A DNA stretch of 25,673 nt from the IMG/VR virus record IMGVR_UViG_3300046517_000688, positions 1-25,673 of that record; one strand, 5' to 3'. Source of the DNA: a virus. Positions 3,192-24,928 of the stretch are shown piece by piece. The translations under genes were made by a program, and so were the position numbers. How positions within the stretch are numbered: position 1 is the stretch's first letter; every line of letters starts with the position of its first letter. The notes beneath the pieces were generated by a model. It was given only the letters and a program-made list of their open reading frames with translations. It had not been told where the DNA came from and did no database searches.

Positions 3192-3818
3192 CTATTTGTG
3201 AGCCGGGATCGGATCGACCCCGTATACGTGGCGGATGTTGTTGATCTCCTTCCGCAGCCGTTCCGTGTGGGAGGCGGTCGGGTGGAGCTTGTGTGCGATG
3301 AAGAACTTGGCGAGCAGGGTCACGTAGCCCTGCGGGTATCCATCCCCGCAATCGCTGTGACCGGAGCCGCTGATGCCCAAGTCCTTGTGCTGGAACACTC
3401 CGGCCTCGATGATTGCCGAGCCGGACACCTTGCCTGGCTTTAGAGGCACCCCGTAGTGGATGTGCCCGTAGGCCAAGAATTCAGCCGCGCCGTGGAGCTG
3501 GTCGTGACGGTGCTTGAACCAGGTCTCCTTGGTGTAGGCTGCGAATGCGATCTGCTCCAGAGAGAGCGTCACGCTATTGAAGTTGCAGACTGCCCAAGCC
3601 TTCGCGGAGTCGGCGACGTAGCGCCCGAACCTGCCGTGCACGTTGACGCCGAGATGGGCTGAGGCTTCCTCCCCGTCGAAGATGCTGCCGAGCTGCTTGA
3701 GATCGGCATCCCCGTCCGGGTTATCGGAACCCTCGGTGGTGTGTAGGACCAGGCCGTGAATCCGCGCACCCTCGCGGCTGGACTGGTGATCGGTGATGTG
3801 GGTGTAGCTGATGTCCAT
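3192..3818 (-). CDS. Endolysin, N-acetylmuramoyl-L-alanine amidase
   Basis: 208 residues, ATG preceded by AAGGAG. Amidase_2/PGRP-type zinc amidase that cuts the glycan-peptide bond. The family opening HGLVLHTTEGSDNP carries the first zinc His (H26). AHLGVNVHGRFGRYV is the conserved strand pair, and LSLEQIAFAAYT gives the expected Glu. FQHKDLGISGSGHSDCGDGY carries the second half of the site: H144 and C157 (H154 as alternative). The C-terminal 30 residues are a basic helix and tail (HTERLRKEINNIRHVYG), possibly wall-binding. No signal peptide, so it depends on a holin. Confidence 0.92.
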   Translation of the reverse strand: MDISYTHITDHQSSREGARIHGLVLHTTEGSDNPDGDADLKQLGSIFDGEEASAHLGVNVHGRFGRYVADSAKAWAVCNFNSVTLSLEQIAFAAYTKETWFKHRHDQLHGAAEFLAYGHIHYGVPLKPGKVSGSAIIEAGVFQHKDLGISGSGHSDCGDGYPQGYVTLLAKFFIAHKLHPTASHTERLRKEINNIRHVYGVDPIPAHK

Positions 3819-6152: not shown

Positions 6153-8092
6153 ACAGACTCCGCCGCGAAGTGATAGCCCGCGTAGTAGAAAATCTGAGCA
6201 GCGAGTTTGTGGTTTCCTTCATCGGTGATAATGTTGAAGTCTCCAAAGCTTGGTACTAGTAGGCCGCGAGCAGACCTAGCCTCCATGCCGGATGGCGGGG
6301 CGACAAACAAGAAGCCATCAGCAATCATGCGCGCCCAGATTTCTTCGGTTTTGTGCTGACGGAATACACCGTCTGAGCGAACCTCCATAGAGCGCGTCTG
6401 GAAACAGAGGCGGTTTTCATCGCCAAGTTCGGTGTAGTAGACGGTGATCGTCACGGAGTCGATTTCAGCGGTGACTCCGGGTAGGTTCGTGCCGTTCTGC
6501 AAGACACACTGAATCGCCGCCCCAAAGTTAGCAGCGTTGATCTGAGCAGGAGTCCAAGTCTGCGACCACTTGTCGCCTGATCCGCCATAGGTCTTGGTTA
6601 GCACTTCGCCGGGCCATTCGATGTAGCGTTCTCCCTTGTCGCTTTCCCATTTGGCGACGCCTTCCTTGACGATCTGCACAGCCGCGTCGAAGACCCAGGT
6701 GTTGGCGGTCTTGCCTGCACCGTAGTTTCCTTTGCGTTTCACTTCGACGATGATCCCGCTGATCGTCGCGCCTTCCGGGATCGCAAACCCGTAGTTCGTG
6801 CATTTCAGAAAGTGGCTTTCTTTCGACCCGCCAACTCCAGCCCCGATGCCAATGGTCGCGTACACGCCATCAGATAGTTTGGCGTTGGCGGGGTTCGTCC
6901 AAGCCGTCGAGCCGACCGTTGCGCTGTCTTCCGCCGTTCCGGGAAGTTTCGATACGAATGAGTCGGGCTGTGAGCCAGAGTCAGGAGCAGTCACAACAAG
7001 ATGCTGCTCAGTCGGCTCGATGAATACACAATCTAGACGTGGTAGCGTCCCAGCTCCACCAGGAGCGCGCGCCGATATTCGCCACTCAATCTGCTGGGTG
7101 CCGACCACCGCGATTTCAGGCCTTATTACCCCAAAGTCAACTAGCGACCAGTTGCCGATCAAGGGAGCTTCGATCACGTTATTCTGCGTCCAACGGGTCG
7201 CGCCCTGAGGCTTCCATTCCAACCGCATCTGTACGGTGCCAAGAGCCGCGTTTGCATCGAATACCCGCATCCGAATCTTGCGGGCGCCAATGTGGGTCAT
7301 GTGACCTGACGCGACGATTTTCGAGTCCAGCACGTTTAGCCACCCGGCATTGAGCGTGGCGTTCTCTACCGTACTGCCGCCCGATGCCCCTGCCCTTCCA
7401 ACGATGCTCGATCCCCCACGCAGCGTTAGAGCCTCGCACTCATAGAACAGAGCCGCCGTAGCGGCTGCGCTGTAGAATCGGGACTCAATCGCAGCCGCTA
7501 GCCCTCGGATATCTTTGGCTGCTTCGTTTTTCAGGCGAATGCGTATCAGGCCTGGAGCAGTCCCCTTGATGTTAGCAATTAGCCATTCGAGTCGGCGAGC
7601 TTCTTCTACTTTGATTTCTCCGCTTGCGATCTCTTTCACGCTGTAGAAGTAAGGGCCGATGGTGAGGGTCAAAGTGATTTCGTTCAAGGTCTGCCGGTGA
7701 GCCATGAGCCATCCATCGACGCCTCCCAGCACAGCCGTGTGAACTATCGCGCCGACCGACACGGAGAAGCCGCCGCCTGAGCTGAAGTCGCGTCGCAACC
7801 AGCCGCCCTCATTCTGGATGCGCCCGATCTTCATCTGAAGAGTCTGTAGCGCGCCAGCCAGGGTGATGCCGCTCTCCGGCTTCGCCCGTAGTTTCAGGGC
7901 GACGGTGCGGTTCGGCGGGTGACGGTCGGCGGGAATTTCTCCGAGTGACTGCCGCACCAAGAACAGTTCCTGTTCGGAATCACCCCATTCAGCCTCTACC
8001 ACACGTAGCCCTAGACGATCTAGGTTCAGCTCGGCACGAGCAGGAGACTGGGTGAACTCCAGAGGGTCGAGGGTGACCGTCTCCATTGGCAT
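6149..8092 (-). CDS. Dit-like minor tail protein with inserted beta domains
   Basis: 647 residues. Residues 1-150 resemble a distal-tail N-domain (ELFLVRQSLGEIPADRHPPN, then NEITLTLTIGPYF). Residues about 155-365 form a jelly-roll-like region (HIGARKIRMRVFDANAALGT, VDFGVIRPEIAVVGTQQIEW). Residues about 395-555 look like a separate beta-sandwich with WTNPANAKLSDGVYATIG, YGFAIPEGATISGIIVEVKR, GGSGDKWSQTWTPAQINAAN. The last part (RSMEVRSDGVFRQ, GFLFVAPPSGMEARSARG, GDFNIITDEGN) returns to the tail-protein pattern. The inserted domains are plausible carbohydrate- or receptor-binding modules. The start overlaps the tape measure stop; a second ATG lies six bases in. Confidence 0.8.
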   Translation of the reverse strand: MPMETVTLDPLEFTQSPARAELNLDRLGLRVVEAEWGDSEQELFLVRQSLGEIPADRHPPNRTVALKLRAKPESGITLAGALQTLQMKIGRIQNEGGWLRRDFSSGGGFSVSVGAIVHTAVLGGVDGWLMAHRQTLNEITLTLTIGPYFYSVKEIASGEIKVEEARRLEWLIANIKGTAPGLIRIRLKNEAAKDIRGLAAAIESRFYSAAATAALFYECEALTLRGGSSIVGRAGASGGSTVENATLNAGWLNVLDSKIVASGHMTHIGARKIRMRVFDANAALGTVQMRLEWKPQGATRWTQNNVIEAPLIGNWSLVDFGVIRPEIAVVGTQQIEWRISARAPGGAGTLPRLDCVFIEPTEQHLVVTAPDSGSQPDSFVSKLPGTAEDSATVGSTAWTNPANAKLSDGVYATIGIGAGVGGSKESHFLKCTNYGFAIPEGATISGIIVEVKRKGNYGAGKTANTWVFDAAVQIVKEGVAKWESDKGERYIEWPGEVLTKTYGGSGDKWSQTWTPAQINAANFGAAIQCVLQNGTNLPGVTAEIDSVTITVYYTELGDENRLCFQTRSMEVRSDGVFRQHKTEEIWARMIADGFLFVAPPSGMEARSARGLLVPSFGDFNIITDEGNHKLAAQIFYYAGYHFAAESV

Positions 8093-16689: not shown

Positions 16690-17862
16690 CTATTCGCCGG
16701 ACCCGTTGGAGGCCACGGTGGCCTTCTGGCCGCCGGTTTCCACGAGACGGGTACCACCCAGCACGTGGCGGATACGCCACGCCACGGAGTCGTCGTCAAA
16801 CGACTCGTTGGGCTCTCCGCCCCCTCCACCGATCCGGCGAGCGTCGGGAGCCTTTTCGTACAGGCTCGGGACCTCGTACCCGCGCAGGAACCCAAGCTCC
16901 AGTGCGGGACGACCGACGCCAGGATCGGCGAACAGGAACCAACTGGTGGAACCGTGTTCTTTGGAGGCGACCACCGGGATGTACGGCTCAACCTGTAGGT
17001 TGATCCGGTTCTTCATCCAGTTTTCAGCACGAATGCGCTGTTTTTCGGTGCCTCCTTCGACGTTGATGTCGATGGTCTGCGCCCGGAGGATGTTGTTGGC
17101 CGTGACCTCCAGGGCAGGCGGGACCACCAGGGTGATGGCGTCCACCACGATGGGTTCCCCGTCTTTGTCCTTCATTTCGGCGAGCGCCAGCATGGCCAGC
17201 TGGAGTCCCGCAATCGTCAGGACGGGCTGTTTGCCAGCGCCATCTTTGACGATGTTCGCCGCGCCAGCCGTGTACAGCGAGGCGTGTGGGCCTTTGCTGT
17301 CCACGAACAGTTCCGTTGCGAACTTCGCCTCGGAACGCCGGGCTGCGCGGGCAAGACGTTCCGGGTTGCGCCTGAACGCATCCAGATCGTCGTTGACCAG
17401 CGCCTCCCATGACAGGTCGATCCGGCGTCCGAACTTCTTGACGCTGAAGGTATCGACGCTGTCGCTGAGCGGGACCTCTTTGTACTCACTGCGCTCCTTG
17501 ACTTCCGGGAGCACAGCCTCGCCGCCGTCCAGCGCGAACCGCTTGACTGAACGGAAGTCGGGGACGGTGCTTCGCCGGCAGTAGGCCTGCCAGGTCGGCT
17601 TCGTCTCCGAGAAGTACCCGAGCAGCTGCCTGTCGAGCACATCGGCGAACAGGATGGGGAAATCGGAAGTGGTCATCGCCTCTTTGAGGTGACTCATCGG
17701 GCGCTTCCCGCTCTCGACCTCCCCCACGAACTTCATCGCCTCCATGAGATCTCGGTTGTCAACGGAACGACCGCGTACACGGGCACCGTCACCCCCGAAC
17801 AGCTGCGAGATTGAGGCGTCATCCGCCCGCAGCCTCTCGATTAGCTCAAGCATCTCAGCCAT
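16690..17862 (-). CDS. Major capsid protein (Mu gpT-like, HK97 fold)
   Basis: 390 residues, the expected size. Sequence hallmarks of the Mu-like major head subunit are visible: TTSDFPILFADVLDRQLLGY at the start of the shell domain, then FGRRIDLSWEALVNDDLDAF (the conserved SWEALVNDD block), RRSEAKFATELFV, and later ITLVVPPALEVTANNILRA and the P-domain-like SWFLFADPG. The C-terminus is polar and Gly-rich. Strong AAAGGAG upstream of the ATG. It follows the DUF2190-like gene by 15 bases, the standard order. The HK97 fold is assumed from the family. Confidence 0.93.
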   Translation of the reverse strand: MAEMLELIERLRADDASISQLFGGDGARVRGRSVDNRDLMEAMKFVGEVESGKRPMSHLKEAMTTSDFPILFADVLDRQLLGYFSETKPTWQAYCRRSTVPDFRSVKRFALDGGEAVLPEVKERSEYKEVPLSDSVDTFSVKKFGRRIDLSWEALVNDDLDAFRRNPERLARAARRSEAKFATELFVDSKGPHASLYTAGAANIVKDGAGKQPVLTIAGLQLAMLALAEMKDKDGEPIVVDAITLVVPPALEVTANNILRAQTIDINVEGGTEKQRIRAENWMKNRINLQVEPYIPVVASKEHGSTSWFLFADPGVGRPALELGFLRGYEVPSLYEKAPDARRIGGGGGEPNESFDDDSVAWRIRHVLGGTRLVETGGQKATVASNGSGE

Positions 17863-18222: not shown

Positions 18223-18735
18223 CTACCGCCCCTCAGCCGCAGCCTTCGCTGCGGACTCGCTCAGACCGCGAGCTTCAAATGCCTCCTGAAGCGCGGTCTT
18301 CTCCTCGGCGCTGGAGCCGCCGCCGTTGCTGGACTCGGAGAGCGGTCCACCGCTCGACCCCGCGCCGCGCACCTTGCCGCGACCGCTGGCCTCACCGATG
18401 TACTCGACCTCCTCGCGCAGCTTCGCGCGGGCACGCTCCTCCAGAGCGCCCTTGTCAAGCTTGCCGTCCGAATCGGTCGGCAGCTCACCACGCAGCGCGT
18501 TCTCGATGACGCGAGCGGCAGCCTTCTTCGGCAACCCCTCATGCTGATCGAGAACGTCGCTGACGATCCGGCCCGCCTCGCGTACCTGAAGACCTTCCTC
18601 GGCACGGTCTGCGCGGTCCCTCTCGTTTTTCTCCGACTCTTTGAGGTCGGCGATTTCCTTCGCCTTGGCCTCGTCGGACTCCTTGAGCTGCCGAACTGAC
18701 TCCTCCAGCTCCGACAGCCGACTTGCATCGGACAT
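18223..18735 (-). CDS. Predicted internally initiated scaffolding protein
   Basis: Inside the protease-scaffold gene, codon 332 is an ATG preceded by GAGGAGGACAGA, a near-perfect Shine-Dalgarno sequence at good spacing. Initiation here would yield a 170-residue protein beginning MSDASRLSELEESVRQLKE, containing only the coiled-coil scaffold and the C-terminal capsid-interacting tail. Nested protease/scaffold genes are established in lambda (C/Nu3). The site lies exactly at the boundary between the protease/linker and the scaffold. The caveat is that GAG GAG GAC also encodes an ordinary acidic stretch. Confidence 0.62.
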   Translation of the reverse strand: MSDASRLSELEESVRQLKESDEAKAKEIADLKESEKNERDRADRAEEGLQVREAGRIVSDVLDQHEGLPKKAAARVIENALRGELPTDSDGKLDKGALEERARAKLREEVEYIGEASGRGKVRGAGSSGGPLSESSNGGGSSAEEKTALQEAFEARGLSESAAKAAAEGR

Positions 18736-19728
18736 TCTGTCCTCCTCGTTGTCACGGCCGGAGCCGCTCTCTTTGTACGGATCGGGGCGGCCAAGCTCTG
18801 CAGCCGCCTCTTGGATGAAGGTTTGGAAAGCCTCTTTCAGGCTCTCGTCATCGCGTATCACAGGTGGCAGCGAATCGGCGAACGTCGCCAGGTCATCCGG
18901 CTCGCTGGTCGGCACGTACGTGGTTTCGCGCTCGACTTCTTCCCCTGACCCTGACAGAGCAACGTCGCCATCCGTGTTCCTGATGTACGCGATCTTCATC
19001 AGGACGCGGTCACCGCCACTCGGGCGAACTGAGAAGATGGCCCAGTTCTCGTCTATGTCAAAGTCTTCGATGTAGACGTAGGTGTACGGTTCCTTTGAAC
19101 CCCACTTTTCTTCGCCCGCCTTTTCAAGGTTCTGGCGCAGCGTCGCGTCCAGCGCCTCCTGGGCGGGCTGTGCAGCCTTCGCGGACTCGATGAGCGGCAT
19201 CACCTTGGCACGCGCAGCCTCGCTGAGCGGGCCGATCTTGCCGCCAGCTCCGGCGAGCGTCACAAAGTCGATGCTCATTCCCTCGGTCAGGTTTTTGATG
19301 AGCGGACCCTCTTTACCACCAGCCGCACCCTGCTCGGTAGTTCCGAACGCCCGAATGCTCAAGCCTATGTGCTCGGCCAGAGCGTCGATCACCGGGACCC
19401 AGTGCTCAAAGATTTCGCAGACCGCGACAGATGCGATCCCGGACATGCGCGGAGCCTCGGCTACTACCCCAACCAGATCCCTGACCGAACGCTCGGGGCG
19501 TTCTGAGTCTTCCTTTCGCGTCGGATGGTCCAGGTACATGTGGGATCCGACCGGGAAGATGCGCGGGATGTCCCGCTCTAGGACTTGCTCAGAGTAGTAG
19601 CCGGACGAACCCCACCCAGCTTCGATGATGACGATCTCCCGCTTGGTCGAACCAGCGGCAGCGGCCTCTCGGAACGCGCGGCTGGACGACTCCAGTATGT
19701 CGGTCTTGTCAAGCGTAATCGTCATCAT
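18223..19728 (-). CDS. Capsid maturation protease fused to scaffold
   Basis: 501 residues with two parts. Residues about 30-170 form the protease: IIEAGWGSSGYYSEQVLERD, then HMYLDHPTR with H68, and GLSIRAFG with S124, the His and Ser expected for prohead proteases of the herpesvirus/S78-like fold; SIDFVTLAG at 152-160 follows. Residues about 210-275 form a linker domain with YVYIEDFDID and ETTYVP. From about 330 the protein is a charged coiled coil (SRLSELEESVRQLKESDEAK) ending in a Ser/Gly-rich, helical tail, typical of scaffolding. The fusion lets the protease co-assemble and then digest the scaffold. Start: tandem ATGs with AAAGG upstream; the exact one is undecided. It is followed immediately by the cement and major capsid genes. 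Confidence 0.88.
   Translation of the reverse strand: MMTITLDKTDILESSSRAFREAAAAGSTKREIVIIEAGWGSSGYYSEQVLERDIPRIFPVGSHMYLDHPTRKEDSERPERSVRDLVGVVAEAPRMSGIASVAVCEIFEHWVPVIDALAEHIGLSIRAFGTTEQGAAGGKEGPLIKNLTEGMSIDFVTLAGAGGKIGPLSEAARAKVMPLIESAKAAQPAQEALDATLRQNLEKAGEEKWGSKEPYTYVYIEDFDIDENWAIFSVRPSGGDRVLMKIAYIRNTDGDVALSGSGEEVERETTYVPTSEPDDLATFADSLPPVIRDDESLKEAFQTFIQEAAAELGRPDPYKESGSGRDNEEDRMSDASRLSELEESVRQLKESDEAKAKEIADLKESEKNERDRADRAEEGLQVREAGRIVSDVLDQHEGLPKKAAARVIENALRGELPTDSDGKLDKGALEERARAKLREEVEYIGEASGRGKVRGAGSSGGPLSESSNGGGSSAEEKTALQEAFEARGLSESAAKAAAEGR
18729..18746 (-). promoter_or_regulatory. Internal ribosome binding site for the scaffold
   Basis: GAGGAGG followed by ACAGA and ATG within the protease-scaffold gene. 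It is among the strongest Shine-Dalgarno matches in the window, comparable to those before the tail chaperone and endolysin genes, although it sits in the middle of a coding frame. Confidence 0.6.
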
Positions 19729-20179: not shown

Positions 20180-20986
20180 TCATGCGTACGGGCCAAACGC
20201 CAGGACGCAGTTCGGATGGGTTCCGTTTGCTTCCGCTTCTGCTTCGTCAAAAGTGAAGATCGCGCCGTTCCGAGCCGCGCATTCCTCATCGCTCTCGCCA
20301 TCGAAAGCCACGCAGAAGTTCACCTGTGGAGCAGACCTGTAGACCTGGACGGTGCTGATCCGAGCCGAGTGCAGCGTCTCGGTGCGAGCGATCAGCCGCG
20401 AGCGGTAGCCAACCCCCGCGTTCGTGAACCTGCCAGCGGGCACAAACTGTTCGATCAGTTTGGCGGTCGCTTTGGGATTAGCTCCGATCATACGCCCCGC
20501 GTCGATGGTCTTGAAGAGAGCGGCTCGCGTGTCGCTAGCGATGTCCACCAGGCCCATTCGTTTGCCGCCTTCCAACAGCATCTTCTGGGCCAGGCGGTCG
20601 CGCGGGGTAGCGGCCTCTATGCCATACTGCTTCAGAACATCCATGGTCAGCACAGCCCCACGTCGCCATGCGCGCTCGAAGATCGGCTTCAGGATTTCGG
20701 TCTTCCACTTCTCAAGGCTGGACGCCGCCAGGATCGCGTTGATCCGCTCCTCCTCGGTGGGCGATACGTCGCTCTCGATCAGCAGACCGCCGACGCTCTG
20801 ACTTGCCTTCGCTACGTGCACGCCAAGCTTGAACATCGCGGGCTTGATTTCGCTCCGCATCATGACTTCTTTGCGAGGCTCGACCTTGCGGAGCGCCCTC
20901 ACCACGGCTGCGCCGGGAGCGATGGCCTCCTGCATCTCGTAGATGTCGTTTAGCAGGGCGCGGCGCTGTAGCGTGGCCGGGGTCAT
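20180..20986 (-). CDS. MuF-like head morphogenesis protein
   Basis: Minor capsid protein of the Mu gpF/SPP1 gp7 type, found in a few copies inside the head near the portal. 268 residues. The C-terminal domain carries the family signature: RLIARTETLHSARISTVQVY, then CVAFDGESDEECAARNG, and finally THPNCVLAFGPYA, with conserved Cys residues spaced as in other MuF domains. The N-terminal half is helical. It starts at an ATG overlapping the portal stop (ATGA) and its own stop overlaps the next frame. No toxin-like C-terminal extension is present, unlike in polymorphic MuF toxins. Confidence 0.92.
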   Translation of the reverse strand: MTPATLQRRALLNDIYEMQEAIAPGAAVVRALRKVEPRKEVMMRSEIKPAMFKLGVHVAKASQSVGGLLIESDVSPTEEERINAILAASSLEKWKTEILKPIFERAWRRGAVLTMDVLKQYGIEAATPRDRLAQKMLLEGGKRMGLVDIASDTRAALFKTIDAGRMIGANPKATAKLIEQFVPAGRFTNAGVGYRSRLIARTETLHSARISTVQVYRSAPQVNFCVAFDGESDEECAARNGAIFTFDEAEAEANGTHPNCVLAFGPYA

Positions 20987-22632
20987 TTGCCGCCTCCAGC
21001 GGGCACCGGAGCGGGCGGCGGTGGGCCGCCATTGCCGGGCGGTGGAGGGGGAGCCTGCTGCATCGCCAGCATGTTCGCTTTCATGTCTTCGACGGCTTTC
21101 TTCAGCTCGTCCTGTTCTTCTTCGTCCATCTCTTTCAGCGCCTGCTCTATGTCATCGACGCCGAGCACTTCCATCAACATTTCGCGGAGCTTTTCGGGCG
21201 GGATCATGCCAGCCTCGCTCCTGCCCATAAGGGTCGCCGCCGCCACGATGGATTCAATCACAGCCTTCTGATCATGTTCGAGGATGGGCGGGAAGGAGAC
21301 TTCTAGCTCAGGGTCCACGCTCGGCTCGATGACCTGGTTGCCTTCGCTATCCCACTCGATGTGGCCCGGCAGAAGACCAACCCTGACCTTGGCATCTACG
21401 TTGTAGCGAACGATGTCTCGACGCAGCTGCGCTTCCGCCTCCTGCTCGCTCAGAATGTACAACTCGGTCGGGCGGTCGAGCGTCTGCGCCGTCGCCAGCG
21501 CACCCTGCTGCGGATCGTTGGACAGGATCGTGTCGGGGATGTTCATACCCGACGCGACCATCAGGCGGCTCGGCTTCGCGTCCTGAGCACTGGTCGTCGC
21601 CCCAGACTTAGGGATCGCCGCGATCTCATCGCCCTCTTTGCCGACGAATGCAGCGCCGCTCGCCTGGTCATTCGTTTCACGGGCTTCGTCTGAGTCAGGG
21701 ATCGTAGAACGCAGTTTTTCCTTCGCCCGTTTGATTTTGCTTCCCTTGGTTTTCACCTGCCAAGCGAATTTGCTGAGCGAAGCGACTAGCGTGTGCCAGT
21801 TCTCAAGGAACTTCTTGTAGGCTCGCGCCCAGTCGAGCGCGGCGTACGTCTCGGGTACGCCGAACAGCATCGACTTCAACCCACCCGTCTTGACATGGAT
21901 CACCGGCGCATCCCACATGACCTCGTACACGCCGATCTTGGCGGGCTGCTGTTTGGGGTAGTAGCGCCAGTCGGGATAGAGCGCCTGTCGCGTGATCTGT
22001 TTCGTCACGCCGGTCTGCTCATCAAAGACCTGTTCCATCCATTCACGCATGTAATACTTGATGAAGCGCGAGTCGCCTTCCTTGGTGTGGATCTCCCTCA
22101 CCTGGTCAGCCGGGATCGCGCGAAGGCTCACGTTCGCCTCATGGTCGGTGAACATGCTGATGAAGACATTGCCATCTACGAGTCGATCTACCTGGGTCAA
22201 CAGCGCAGCCTGATGTGAGAACAGCTCGACTCGGTTGTAGTCGTCGCCCATCAGCGGCTCGACAACCTCGTCCTGAACCTGTTTGTCAGGGGCGGTCATC
22301 TCACAACCCTGAGCCCAGGTGTAGTAGGTCACGATGTTGACGGCACGCTGGATGAGCGGGTGGCTCAGGTAATAGGCACGCGACAAGCCGATGATGTTGT
22401 CCAGGCCACGCCGCGAGAATTCACGCTCCATGCGCCAGCCCGCTCGGCGCCAGCCTTCTTCCTCCATCTCGATCTCAAGCAGGCGCAGGTTCTCCTGGAT
22501 GATCTCGTTGTTCAACCTCTCCTGGCCTAGCTGCTCATGAAGAACATCGACCGGATCGCGGGCAGGACCGGACTCGGGCGGCTCTGGCCCACGCCCCGTC
22601 ACTGCCTCGCTGATCCGGTCGAGAGCACCCAT
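20983..22632 (-). CDS. Portal protein
   Basis: Forms the dodecameric ring at the capsid vertex through which DNA enters and to which the tail connectors attach. 549 residues. The N-terminal third has the typical portal block with LSRAYYLSHPLIQRAVNIVT followed by YYTWAQGCEM. The middle contains the wing/stem-like region with an amphipathic YKKFLENWHTLVASLSKFAW segment. Near the C-terminus is a long acidic helix (DDIEQALKEMDEEEQDELKK), then a Pro/Gly-rich tail with PPPP runs. Start is the ATG at 22632 with AGGTG about eight bases upstream. The stop overlaps the MuF-like gene as ATGA, the standard portal-MuF pairing of siphoviruses. Assignment is from sequence character and context. Confidence 0.93.
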   Translation of the reverse strand: MGALDRISEAVTGRGPEPPESGPARDPVDVLHEQLGQERLNNEIIQENLRLLEIEMEEEGWRRAGWRMEREFSRRGLDNIIGLSRAYYLSHPLIQRAVNIVTYYTWAQGCEMTAPDKQVQDEVVEPLMGDDYNRVELFSHQAALLTQVDRLVDGNVFISMFTDHEANVSLRAIPADQVREIHTKEGDSRFIKYYMREWMEQVFDEQTGVTKQITRQALYPDWRYYPKQQPAKIGVYEVMWDAPVIHVKTGGLKSMLFGVPETYAALDWARAYKKFLENWHTLVASLSKFAWQVKTKGSKIKRAKEKLRSTIPDSDEARETNDQASGAAFVGKEGDEIAAIPKSGATTSAQDAKPSRLMVASGMNIPDTILSNDPQQGALATAQTLDRPTELYILSEQEAEAQLRRDIVRYNVDAKVRVGLLPGHIEWDSEGNQVIEPSVDPELEVSFPPILEHDQKAVIESIVAAATLMGRSEAGMIPPEKLREMLMEVLGVDDIEQALKEMDEEEQDELKKAVEDMKANMLAMQQAPPPPPGNGGPPPPAPVPAGGGK

Positions 22633-22635
22633 GGT

Positions 22636-22803
22636 CTACACCTGCCACCCGTCAATTACCTCTGGAACAGGTATTGGGGTTACGCCCTTTCGTTGGGCCG
22701 ACTTGATGTCAGGCTCGCACAGCCTCTCTGTGAAGTGCCAGCGTCCTAGCGCCTCGCCGGTAACGGCGTCGCGTACGCGCCAGACTTTGAGCCGAGCCAT
22801 CAT
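22636..22803 (-). CDS. Small unknown protein (55 aa)
   Basis: Two tandem ATGs begin this frame. The first (22803) overlaps the peptidase stop as ATGA, and the stop (TAG, 22636-22638) lies three bases before the portal ATG. The product is small, starting MMARLKVWRVRDAVTGEALG, with one Cys, several Trp, and an ending IPVPEVIDGWQV. It reads like a compact beta-type protein and its amino-acid usage looks coding rather than random. I do not recognise a family. Its 3' end contains the GGCAGGTG that serves as the portal ribosome binding site. Its place suggests a packaging- or portal-associated accessory, or a partner or inhibitor of the neighbouring peptidase. Both are guesses. Confidence 0.65.
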   Translation of the reverse strand: MMARLKVWRVRDAVTGEALGRWHFTERLCEPDIKSAQRKGVTPIPVPEVIDGWQV

Positions 22804-23573
22804 GACTGGATCGCTCGGAAGTCGTCAGCGTAGCCGCCGAACAGGAAGGCGTTGGGCATCCAGACGTAGCCGTTGTCCATGACGTTCGGACCCCAGCTGT
22901 TGCGGCACTCCATGTAGCCGGGTTTCCAGCCGACGATCAACATCTCGTGGCCGCCGATGAACTGTTCGGCCGTGTTGTACGGCGGCAGCACGCCGGTCGT
23001 CATGGTCGCCTCGCCCTCGAACGATTCCGGCACGGGGAAGCCGAACGCCACCGGCTGCTTCTGGTGGACGAGCTTCTTGACCTCCGCAGCCGTGGTCCGG
23101 GCGTGAGTGTAGTGGTGGATTTTATGAGCGCCTGCGTCGGCGTAGGCCTGCTCACTCGGTTTGTCGGCGAAGCGGGCGATGATGTACGGCCAGACCGTCT
23201 CGGGCGGGACGCCGACCTTGCGGAGCGCCGCGAAGCCGTCACGACCGTACGCGCCGGAGTCGGTAGTCACCGTGCCCTCGCGCAGGCGCTCCAGGTAGTA
23301 GATGAACAGGCGCGACGGAACGCCAAAGTCCGTTCCCGCGAGCATGTTGAAATACTGGATCGCCCCGGCTAGAGCGTTGCCCGTACAGGAGCCGAGCTGG
23401 CCCTGGTCATAGACCGGGGGCATCTCATCCCTCAGGCTGAAGACGTCGGGCAGGTCCATCACGTCGGCGTCGGTCAGCGGCGACGCGAAGGCCATCGCAT
23501 CGCGGGCGTCGGGCAGGCTGCGCTTGTAGCCGTAGCGGCGCTCGCCTAGTAGCTCTGCGGCGTAGGTGCTCAT
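22800..23573 (-). CDS. Papain-like (C1A family) cysteine peptidase
   Basis: A complete papain-fold peptidase of 257 residues. The oxyanion-hole Gln (Q57 in DQG) precedes the nucleophile C63 in GSCTGNA by six residues, as in papain. The catalytic His is H209 in GGHEMLIVGW, and the Asn is N225 in the classic RNSWG motif. About 45 N-terminal residues (YGYKRSLPDARD region) resemble the short leader of bacterial C1 enzymes. No signal peptide is visible, so it is probably cytoplasmic or virion-packaged. I chose the ATG at 23573, not the GTG 30 bases upstream: it overlaps the terL stop as ATGA and has TTGGAG eight bases upstream. A cysteine peptidase between terminase and portal is unusual. The head protease is encoded separately below, so this enzyme may act on a host protein, serve as an anti-defence factor, or process a virion component. 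The substrate is unknown. Confidence 0.9.
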   Translation of the reverse strand: MSTYAAELLGERRYGYKRSLPDARDAMAFASPLTDADVMDLPDVFSLRDEMPPVYDQGQLGSCTGNALAGAIQYFNMLAGTDFGVPSRLFIYYLERLREGTVTTDSGAYGRDGFAALRKVGVPPETVWPYIIARFADKPSEQAYADAGAHKIHHYTHARTTAAEVKKLVHQKQPVAFGFPVPESFEGEATMTTGVLPPYNTAEQFIGGHEMLIVGWKPGYMECRNSWGPNVMDNGYVWMPNAFLFGGYADDFRAIQS

Positions 23574-24928
23574 ATATCTGCTCCAATCCGTTCGGGTTCC
23601 CACGTTTCCTCGACGTGCTCGTCATCCTCGTCTTCAAGGAACAACTCGGTAAACAGCCAGACGAGAGCATCAAGTCGGTCAGGCGAGTCTTCGTCCCCAG
23701 GCACCCACGTGCAAAGCTGGTCCTCTAGATCGGGGAAGCCACCGATATGACGGACCATCCCCTCACGGATCACGTCGCCGTTGTCCTCATAGTCCCCGTA
23801 CAGCGACGCGACTGGCTGCGCTCGGGTCGCCTTGCCTCGGCTCGCGTGGACCGCCTTGAACGGAACGTTCGGGTTGACCGTAGAGATCACATGCTCTACC
23901 ATCTCACCACCGTTGTTGACCTCGCCCACGATGTAATCGGCTCGGTGTTTTTCATACATATGTACAGCCCTCGCGCCCCACTTGTTCGGCGGCAGGTGGC
24001 AGGTCGCGTCCTCGATCACGTAGCCATAGCCGTCAACGCCTAGCCCGCCGACCAGAATGCCGGTGTCGTCGGCGTCAGGTTTGCTAGTCGCGGCCGGATC
24101 GACGGCCACCACGACCATCGCCATGTCGGGAACTTTGAGCGGGTCCTGTACGCGCTCTGAGTCAATCATGAAGCGCGTCCAGAGCGCTCCGATCACGTCT
24201 TCCAGAAGCTCACCGTACAGCTCCTGGCGCCCGAGCCGCGTGCCCTTGTACTTCTTCAACATCATGTCGGTAAACGATTTGGGGTTGTGCGGATTGTCGA
24301 GCATGCTGATGCCCGTCACGAGAAACGTCTCGGCCATCGCTCGGATCGTCCGGTACGCCTTGATCGAGCGCGGGGTGGTCGAGCCGATGGCGTGTGGAAA
24401 GCTACCTAGCCTCAGACCGAACGCCGCCTGATCCCACGCTTCCTGGAGCTGGGTGTTGGCCGCCATCTCCTCCCACCAGTCGATGTGGCGGTTGCCCGTA
24501 GCGCGGAGACGTTCGACATCCTTCTGAAAGGGCGTTCCTAGTACCAGCGCCTCAGCTCCGCCCGGCCAGATCAGCTTCGAGCCACCATCCGCGCCGGGGA
24601 TCCATCGGACCTCTGGGTCCTGGTTAAGCACCCCGCTTGGCCCGCGCACGCAGGCTTCCACGGCGTCGCCAAAAGTCGGGGCGATGATCCGACCCCGTGC
24701 TAGCGGGTTTTGACGCATGAACTTGCAGTAGTACCTTGCGCAAGCCTCGGTCTTGCCCGCGCCACGGCCAGCCTCTAGTAGCCAGAGCGATGGCCCTCCT
24801 CTCTTGCCTAGTCGATCAGGAGGAACCTGATGCGGCTCTAGCGGCGGTCGTCCCGTAGCCGACCAGGGCGGCGGGTCGATGATGTCGGCTGCCACCGCCA
24901 TAGGATCTATGACGGCGGTAGGACTCAC
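23570..24928 (-). CDS. terL: Terminase large subunit (ATPase-nuclease)
   Basis: DNA-packaging motor and headful/cos nuclease that docks on the portal. 452 residues from a GTG start, a normal length. The ATPase domain has Walker A AGRGAGKT at 53-60 and a Walker B-type acidic segment IDWWEE at 149-154. A Ser/Thr-rich coupling segment (GSTTP, 182-186) follows. The RNase H-like nuclease half shows the expected three acidic sites: D277 in VAVDPAA, E336 in GEVNNGG, and D417/D420 in SPDRLDALVW. The C-terminus is an acidic tail of about 25 residues. The start overlaps the preceding short frame as GTGA; the stop overlaps the peptidase gene as ATGA. Packaging type (cos or pac) cannot be told from this alone. 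Confidence 0.97.
   Translation of the reverse strand: MSPTAVIDPMAVAADIIDPPPWSATGRPPLEPHQVPPDRLGKRGGPSLWLLEAGRGAGKTEACARYYCKFMRQNPLARGRIIAPTFGDAVEACVRGPSGVLNQDPEVRWIPGADGGSKLIWPGGAEALVLGTPFQKDVERLRATGNRHIDWWEEMAANTQLQEAWDQAAFGLRLGSFPHAIGSTTPRSIKAYRTIRAMAETFLVTGISMLDNPHNPKSFTDMMLKKYKGTRLGRQELYGELLEDVIGALWTRFMIDSERVQDPLKVPDMAMVVVAVDPAATSKPDADDTGILVGGLGVDGYGYVIEDATCHLPPNKWGARAVHMYEKHRADYIVGEVNNGGEMVEHVISTVNPNVPFKAVHASRGKATRAQPVASLYGDYEDNGDVIREGMVRHIGGFPDLEDQLCTWVPGDEDSPDRLDALVWLFTELFLEDEDDEHVEETWEPERIGADI

Follow-up and report, generated by a model that had tools for sequence, protein, structure and literature searches.

The window analysed here, the 25,673 nucleotides of IMG/VR virus record IMGVR_UViG_3300046517_000688 (positions 1 to 25,673), carries a tight operon on the minus strand in the order terL, peptidase, a 55-aa ORF, portal and MuF. 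The stop codon of terL (23,570-24,928; PF17289, PF03237; phrog_979) overlaps the start of the peptidase gene (22,800-23,573) as ATGA, and the stop of the peptidase gene overlaps the start of the 55-aa ORF (22,636-22,803) in the same way. These genes are followed by the portal gene (20,983-22,632; phrog_10963, E 3.5e-68) and a gene for a MuF/SPP1 gp7-like minor head protein (20,180-20,986; phrog_2468), the identification of which is weaker than those of TerL, portal, head protease and capsid, as PF04233 and TIGR01641 both matched below the Pfam and NCBIfam cut-offs. Further along the same strand lie a separate head maturation protease, identified by homology (18,223-19,728; phrog_15531, E 3.6e-27), and the major capsid protein (16,690-17,862; PF25209, E 2.2e-43). 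The first-pass annotation of this DNA had placed the peptidase between terminase and portal, translationally coupled to terL, and had noted a dedicated head protease elsewhere. The separate head protease was borne out and the slot itself stood, except that the 55-aa ORF, which had gone unmentioned, separates the peptidase from the portal; as for the coupling, the ATGA overlap was seen, and coupling is what such an overlap would suggest.

The peptidase gene runs from an ATG at 23,573 to a TGA at 22,800-22,802 on the minus strand and comprises 257 codons. Its 257-aa product matched Peptidase_C1 (PF00112) alone among Pfam families, scoring 39.6 bits (cut-off 20.7; E 8e-10), and phmmer aligned it with xylellain (PDB 3ois; E 3.8e-40). 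The codons of the oxyanion-hole residue Gln57 (23,403-23,405), the nucleophile Cys63 (23,385-23,387), His209 (22,947-22,949) and Asn225, the first residue of NSWG (22,899-22,901), were checked by position, and all four columns were invariant across 58 aligned homologues. The spacings Q-x5-C and H-x15-N are those of papain, in which the counterparts are Q19/C25 and H159/N175. By residue order and spacing, Pfam match and papain fold the protein belongs to the C1A papain family, and by its N-terminal segment and closest similarity it is a short C1A peptidase of the xylellain type; ORF, residues, Pfam and 3ois thus agree with the complete papain-type peptidase previously described at this position. 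The GC3 of the gene (0.876) is higher than that of the other window genes measured (0.68-0.79). A recent foreign origin by composition was considered and rejected, since peptidase GC3 roughly tracks the genome in relatives and is therefore weakly informative.

An AlphaFold2 model of the peptidase, built on 58 homologues, reached a pLDDT of 93.9 and a pTM of 0.92, and resembled papain, cathepsin and xylellain structures in both Foldseek and VIA-align. The top structural match in Foldseek was xylellain 3ois (TM 0.85), which VIA-align superimposed on model residues 1-257 with a Z of 33.6, the next entry reaching 25.7. With a papain/xylellain fold predicted and the catalytic residues in place, the papain-type active site proposed earlier was upheld. 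Mature cathepsin K, cathepsin H and ervatamin aligned from model residue ~40 and pro-enzymes from residue 1-3, placing residues 1-40 (23,454-23,573, minus strand) at the position of a zymogen prosegment. This segment carries a conserved YG[WY]xxSxPDxRD-type motif, which is kept in phage as well as bacterial homologues. Since residues 1-40 sit at the prosegment position, the encoded peptidase may be zymogen-like and may need activation; the predicted structure is not outright without an accessible active site, with ~40 N-terminal residues lying at that position. Neither a hydrophobic N-terminal segment nor an anchor or binding domain was found in the window peptidase.

The same terL-portal slot holds a peptidase in six other IMG/VR phages, namely L005, L006, L008, L009, L010 and L086; L003 and L085 lie on the contig of L006, and L004 and L094 on that of L008. 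The slot copies and L007 formed one phage-only clade (SH-aLRT 99) in a tree that also included 44 bacterial sequences and 45 further viral ones, all of which fell outside it. Same-slot relatives of 72-73% identity gave a peptidase dN/dS of 0.23-0.26, near the 0.17-0.21 obtained for portal, MuF, head protease and capsid, indicating that the peptidase is under purifying selection and is not a chance ORF. The active site is intact in six slot copies including that of the window, from phages with portals down to about 50% identical, and the gene probably encodes an intact, working papain-type protease. The exception is the L086 copy (6,668-7,453), in which Cys, His and Asn are kept, the GQLGSC/GSC motif is gone and one residue is missing from the Q-C loop; judged by its sequence, this copy may be altered or inactive. 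Only one phage clade has the peptidase at the terL-portal position, where no routine function is known for it. Other optional genes occupy the terL-portal gap or follow MuF in sister phages (L086:5052-6659, L089:7216-7770, L005:9156-11873, L009:7274-9328) and encode a GH28/pectate-lyase-like protein, a DUF6884 protein and large spike-like proteins, with a beta-helix domain in L005; beta-helix spike-like genes were seen in or near the operon of L086, L005 and L009.

Loci L257 and L258 both keep terL (505 aa), the small ORF, portal, MuF, head protease and capsid, and the peptidase is absent from their terL-portal slot, with PF00112 found nowhere in the two records (26 and 47 kb). As their shared DNA is identical, we counted them as one phage. 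In the portal tree they nest within the peptidase-bearing clade as sister to L010 (support 100/99), and this tree requires two changes in peptidase presence. One gain and one loss, the latter in L257/L258, is the simplest history, on an unrooted count of changes by which the direction is not provable. We also ran the peptidase HMM on 64 loci having both capsid and portal relatives, where it matched L260 (contig of L005) and L330 (contig of L010) alone; some of these loci end near the portal, making this an incomplete census. Moreover, the peptidase is absent from relatives L087-L089, from the slot of two isolated portal relatives (a Glutamicibacter phage and a Methanoculleus virus) and from relatives with portals 46-52% identical to that of the window. 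A protease needed for head maturation in every phage with such a head module would have been present in L257/L258 and in the other capsid and portal relatives, and it was not. The view of the first-pass annotation that the enzyme has no necessary job in capsid maturation was thus strengthened, as L257/L258 dropped the peptidase and retained the head genes and a separate head protease is present.

Relatives of the peptidase are encoded in about 300 IMG/VR stretches, and outside the window clade their settings vary. In L043 a C1 peptidase directly follows an SPP1-type portal (PF05133), the two genes overlapping by 4 bases; L061 has one upstream of a Terminase_3. The gene order in L043 (506-4878), an unrelated phage, is SPP1-type portal, C1 peptidase, RNase H-like protein (phrog_2259), probable scaffold and capsid; here a C1 peptidase has come to lie within a head operon independently of the window clade. 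The idea that phage C1 peptidases generally associate with terminases was not retained, as outside the window clade a terminase lay within 5 kb in 6/15 cases against 2.5 expected (Fisher p 0.10, not significant). PHROG tallies gave mixed neighbours, including tail/fibre, methyltransferase, anti-repressor and HNH genes; some copies adjoin tail-fibre or virion structural genes, that of Thermoanaerobacterium phage THSA-485A adjoins a GH25 endolysin, that of ctsTn925 lies between head-completion and tail/lysis genes, and that of a jumbo phage lies among hypothetical genes. Fused domains were also observed: the C1 peptidase domain is joined to collagen-like repeats in L064 (4738-6438) and to an N-terminal LamG/ConA-like domain (LamG_3) in L084 (1622-3205), both resembling fibre or adhesin proteins of virions, and in the 753-aa annotated endolysin of Alicyclobacillus phage MMB025 (L185:5881-8142) to Rv2525c glycosidase-like and peptidoglycan-binding domains. 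The virion enzymes reported for jumbo phage XacN1 include a chitinase, a lipase and an M23 peptidase but not its C1 peptidase (PMC5852040), which speaks weakly against packaging of the latter in that phage.

Among known systems the closest is xylellain of Xylella fastidiosa, a short C1A peptidase with about 40% identity to the window protein over the whole length and with the same fold, N-terminal segment and catalytic residues; xylellain, however, is a bacterial gene, whereas the window copy lies in a phage packaging operon and belongs to a phage-only clade. Xylellain-type C1A peptidases were previously reported in Caudoviricetes and Mimiviridae, with horizontal acquisition from bacteria (PMC10380794). 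In the part of that report considered here, the tailed-phage family is described without genome position or function, whereas the present data add a fixed terL-portal slot with likely gain and loss. The isolated phage THSA-485A also has an annotated papain-family peptidase, but with about 24% identity and outside the packaging operon. NlpC/P60 phage peptidases share the papain-like superfold and are sometimes tail-associated (PMC7824862); these enzymes cut peptidoglycan peptides, in contrast to the Peptidase_C1 match of the window protein.

Taken together, the purifying selection on the peptidase, its dispensability in one lineage, the separate head protease and the unrelated head modules beside which C1 copies occur elsewhere argue for an accessory protease rather than one of essential maturation; the gene is probably a long-kept optional one that is not essential for building the particle. 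We consider it an accessory, late-made C1A protease of the xylellain type, the most likely target of which would be a host-derived protein and the most likely site of action outside the producing cell, and give this reading a probability of roughly 0.45. The collagen, LamG and peptidoglycan-binding fusions, the endolysin and fibre neighbours and the spike-like genes of the sister phages count for it, while the missing anchor or binding domain and hydrophobic N-terminus, the XacN1 proteome, the mixed contexts and the non-significant terminase proximity count against it. By analogy with the relatives, in view of their fused domains and their places among late genes, the substrate would be a protein of the surface, the matrix or the cell envelope, although the window protein itself is without such domains.

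Such a gene would have been acquired, most simply once, by a tailed-phage lineage, perhaps of Actinobacteria, and inherited along with the packaging and head operon; most relatives of the portal belong to phages of Arthrobacter, Microbacterium and Streptomyces. Its product would be translated together with TerL and portal and made with the late packaging proteins, fold under the reducing conditions of the cytosol into a zymogen-like enzyme with a short prosegment, and hydrolyse protein by the usual Cys63-His209 mechanism, in which Asn225 would orient the histidine and Gln57 would provide the oxyanion hole. It would most likely act on a host-derived rather than a phage head protein, and most likely outside the producing cell, either particle-borne or freed at lysis, on a surface or matrix protein.

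Other roles have to be weighed against this one. Encoded within the packaging operon between terL and portal, and consisting of one soluble domain that lacks a signal or hydrophobic N-terminus, the protease could be incorporated in the particle or attached to it and injected with the DNA, to cut a specific host protein early in the next cell for host takeover or anti-defence, for which the late-synthesised, injected Alt of phage T4 offers a counterpart (PMC5512222). Given that no PADLOC model matched the peptidase at E 0.001, by which defence homology was rejected, and that papain-type enzymes are not among the four peptidase superfamilies listed in a survey of injected polyvalent proteins, we find this less likely, though injection is a live rival. 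Late action within the producing cell, through breakdown of host proteins for turnover or as an aid to lysis, would suit a protein expected to be soluble and cytosolic and is in line with the relatives near endolysins or in lysis modules (THSA-485A, MMB025 and ctsTn925). The window phage, however, has its own Amidase_2 endolysin (3,192-3,818, minus strand), which is distinct from the peptidase and led us to discard the latter as the endolysin of this phage, and the prosegment-like N-terminus suggests restraint within the cell; such a role is thus also unlikely.

Processing of the phage's own head proteins during assembly, with portal, MuF, the TerL tail or scaffold as substrates, would be in line with the fixed slot in the head operon and its ATGA overlaps and with the fact that phages with an exchanged terL also inherited the peptidase together with the head module, but it is difficult to reconcile with the absences in L257/L258 and L087-L089, with the separate head protease and with the C1 copies of L043 and L061. 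An essential role in capsid or portal processing is unlikely, and head processing of any kind appears quite improbable; portal/MuF processing, one of the candidates of the first-pass annotation, was weakened by the related portals lacking the gene and by the C1 copies adjoining unrelated portals and terminases. Finally, the loss in L257/L258 and the altered L086 copy could be taken to mean that the peptidase is a near-neutral passenger, which the purifying selection and the six intact active sites across divergent portals make very improbable.

C1A peptidases of phages occur commonly on environmental contigs, yet the literature searched gave annotation-level mentions and no functional study, for either a function or a virion location. 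Sister phages with and without the peptidase in an otherwise conserved head operon offer a clean natural comparison, by which the role of a papain-type protease in a phage becomes testable, and the comparison with L257/L258 argues against assigning phage C1A genes to capsid maturation.

Two further observations concern the genes flanking the peptidase. The 55-aa ORF belongs to a family of small proteins (51-58 aa) encoded just upstream of the portal, with or without a peptidase, as recognized by a leave-one-out HMM (L005:6531-6686, L006:7060-7215, L008:5167-5322, L009:4697-4873, L010:5339-5500, L257:4937-5155 and window 22,636-22,803, minus strand). Its AlphaFold2 model (pLDDT 90) has a beta-beta-alpha-beta arrangement, and no significant match was obtained for the model in the PDB or for the protein in Pfam and PHROG. 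Until L257/L258 were added, the small ORF was found with intact peptidases alone; as these carry it without a peptidase, we rejected a two-gene cassette of peptidase and inhibitor or partner and regard the ORF as a head-module gene. TerL, on the other side, is swapped for a different type in L005, L006, L010 and L257. The last 38 TerL residues of the window (23,570-24,928), L005 (4268-5764) and L006 (4723-6219) are nevertheless 55-58% identical and end in ETWEP..IGAD, a shared C-terminus that suggests a recombination joint or a docking tail.
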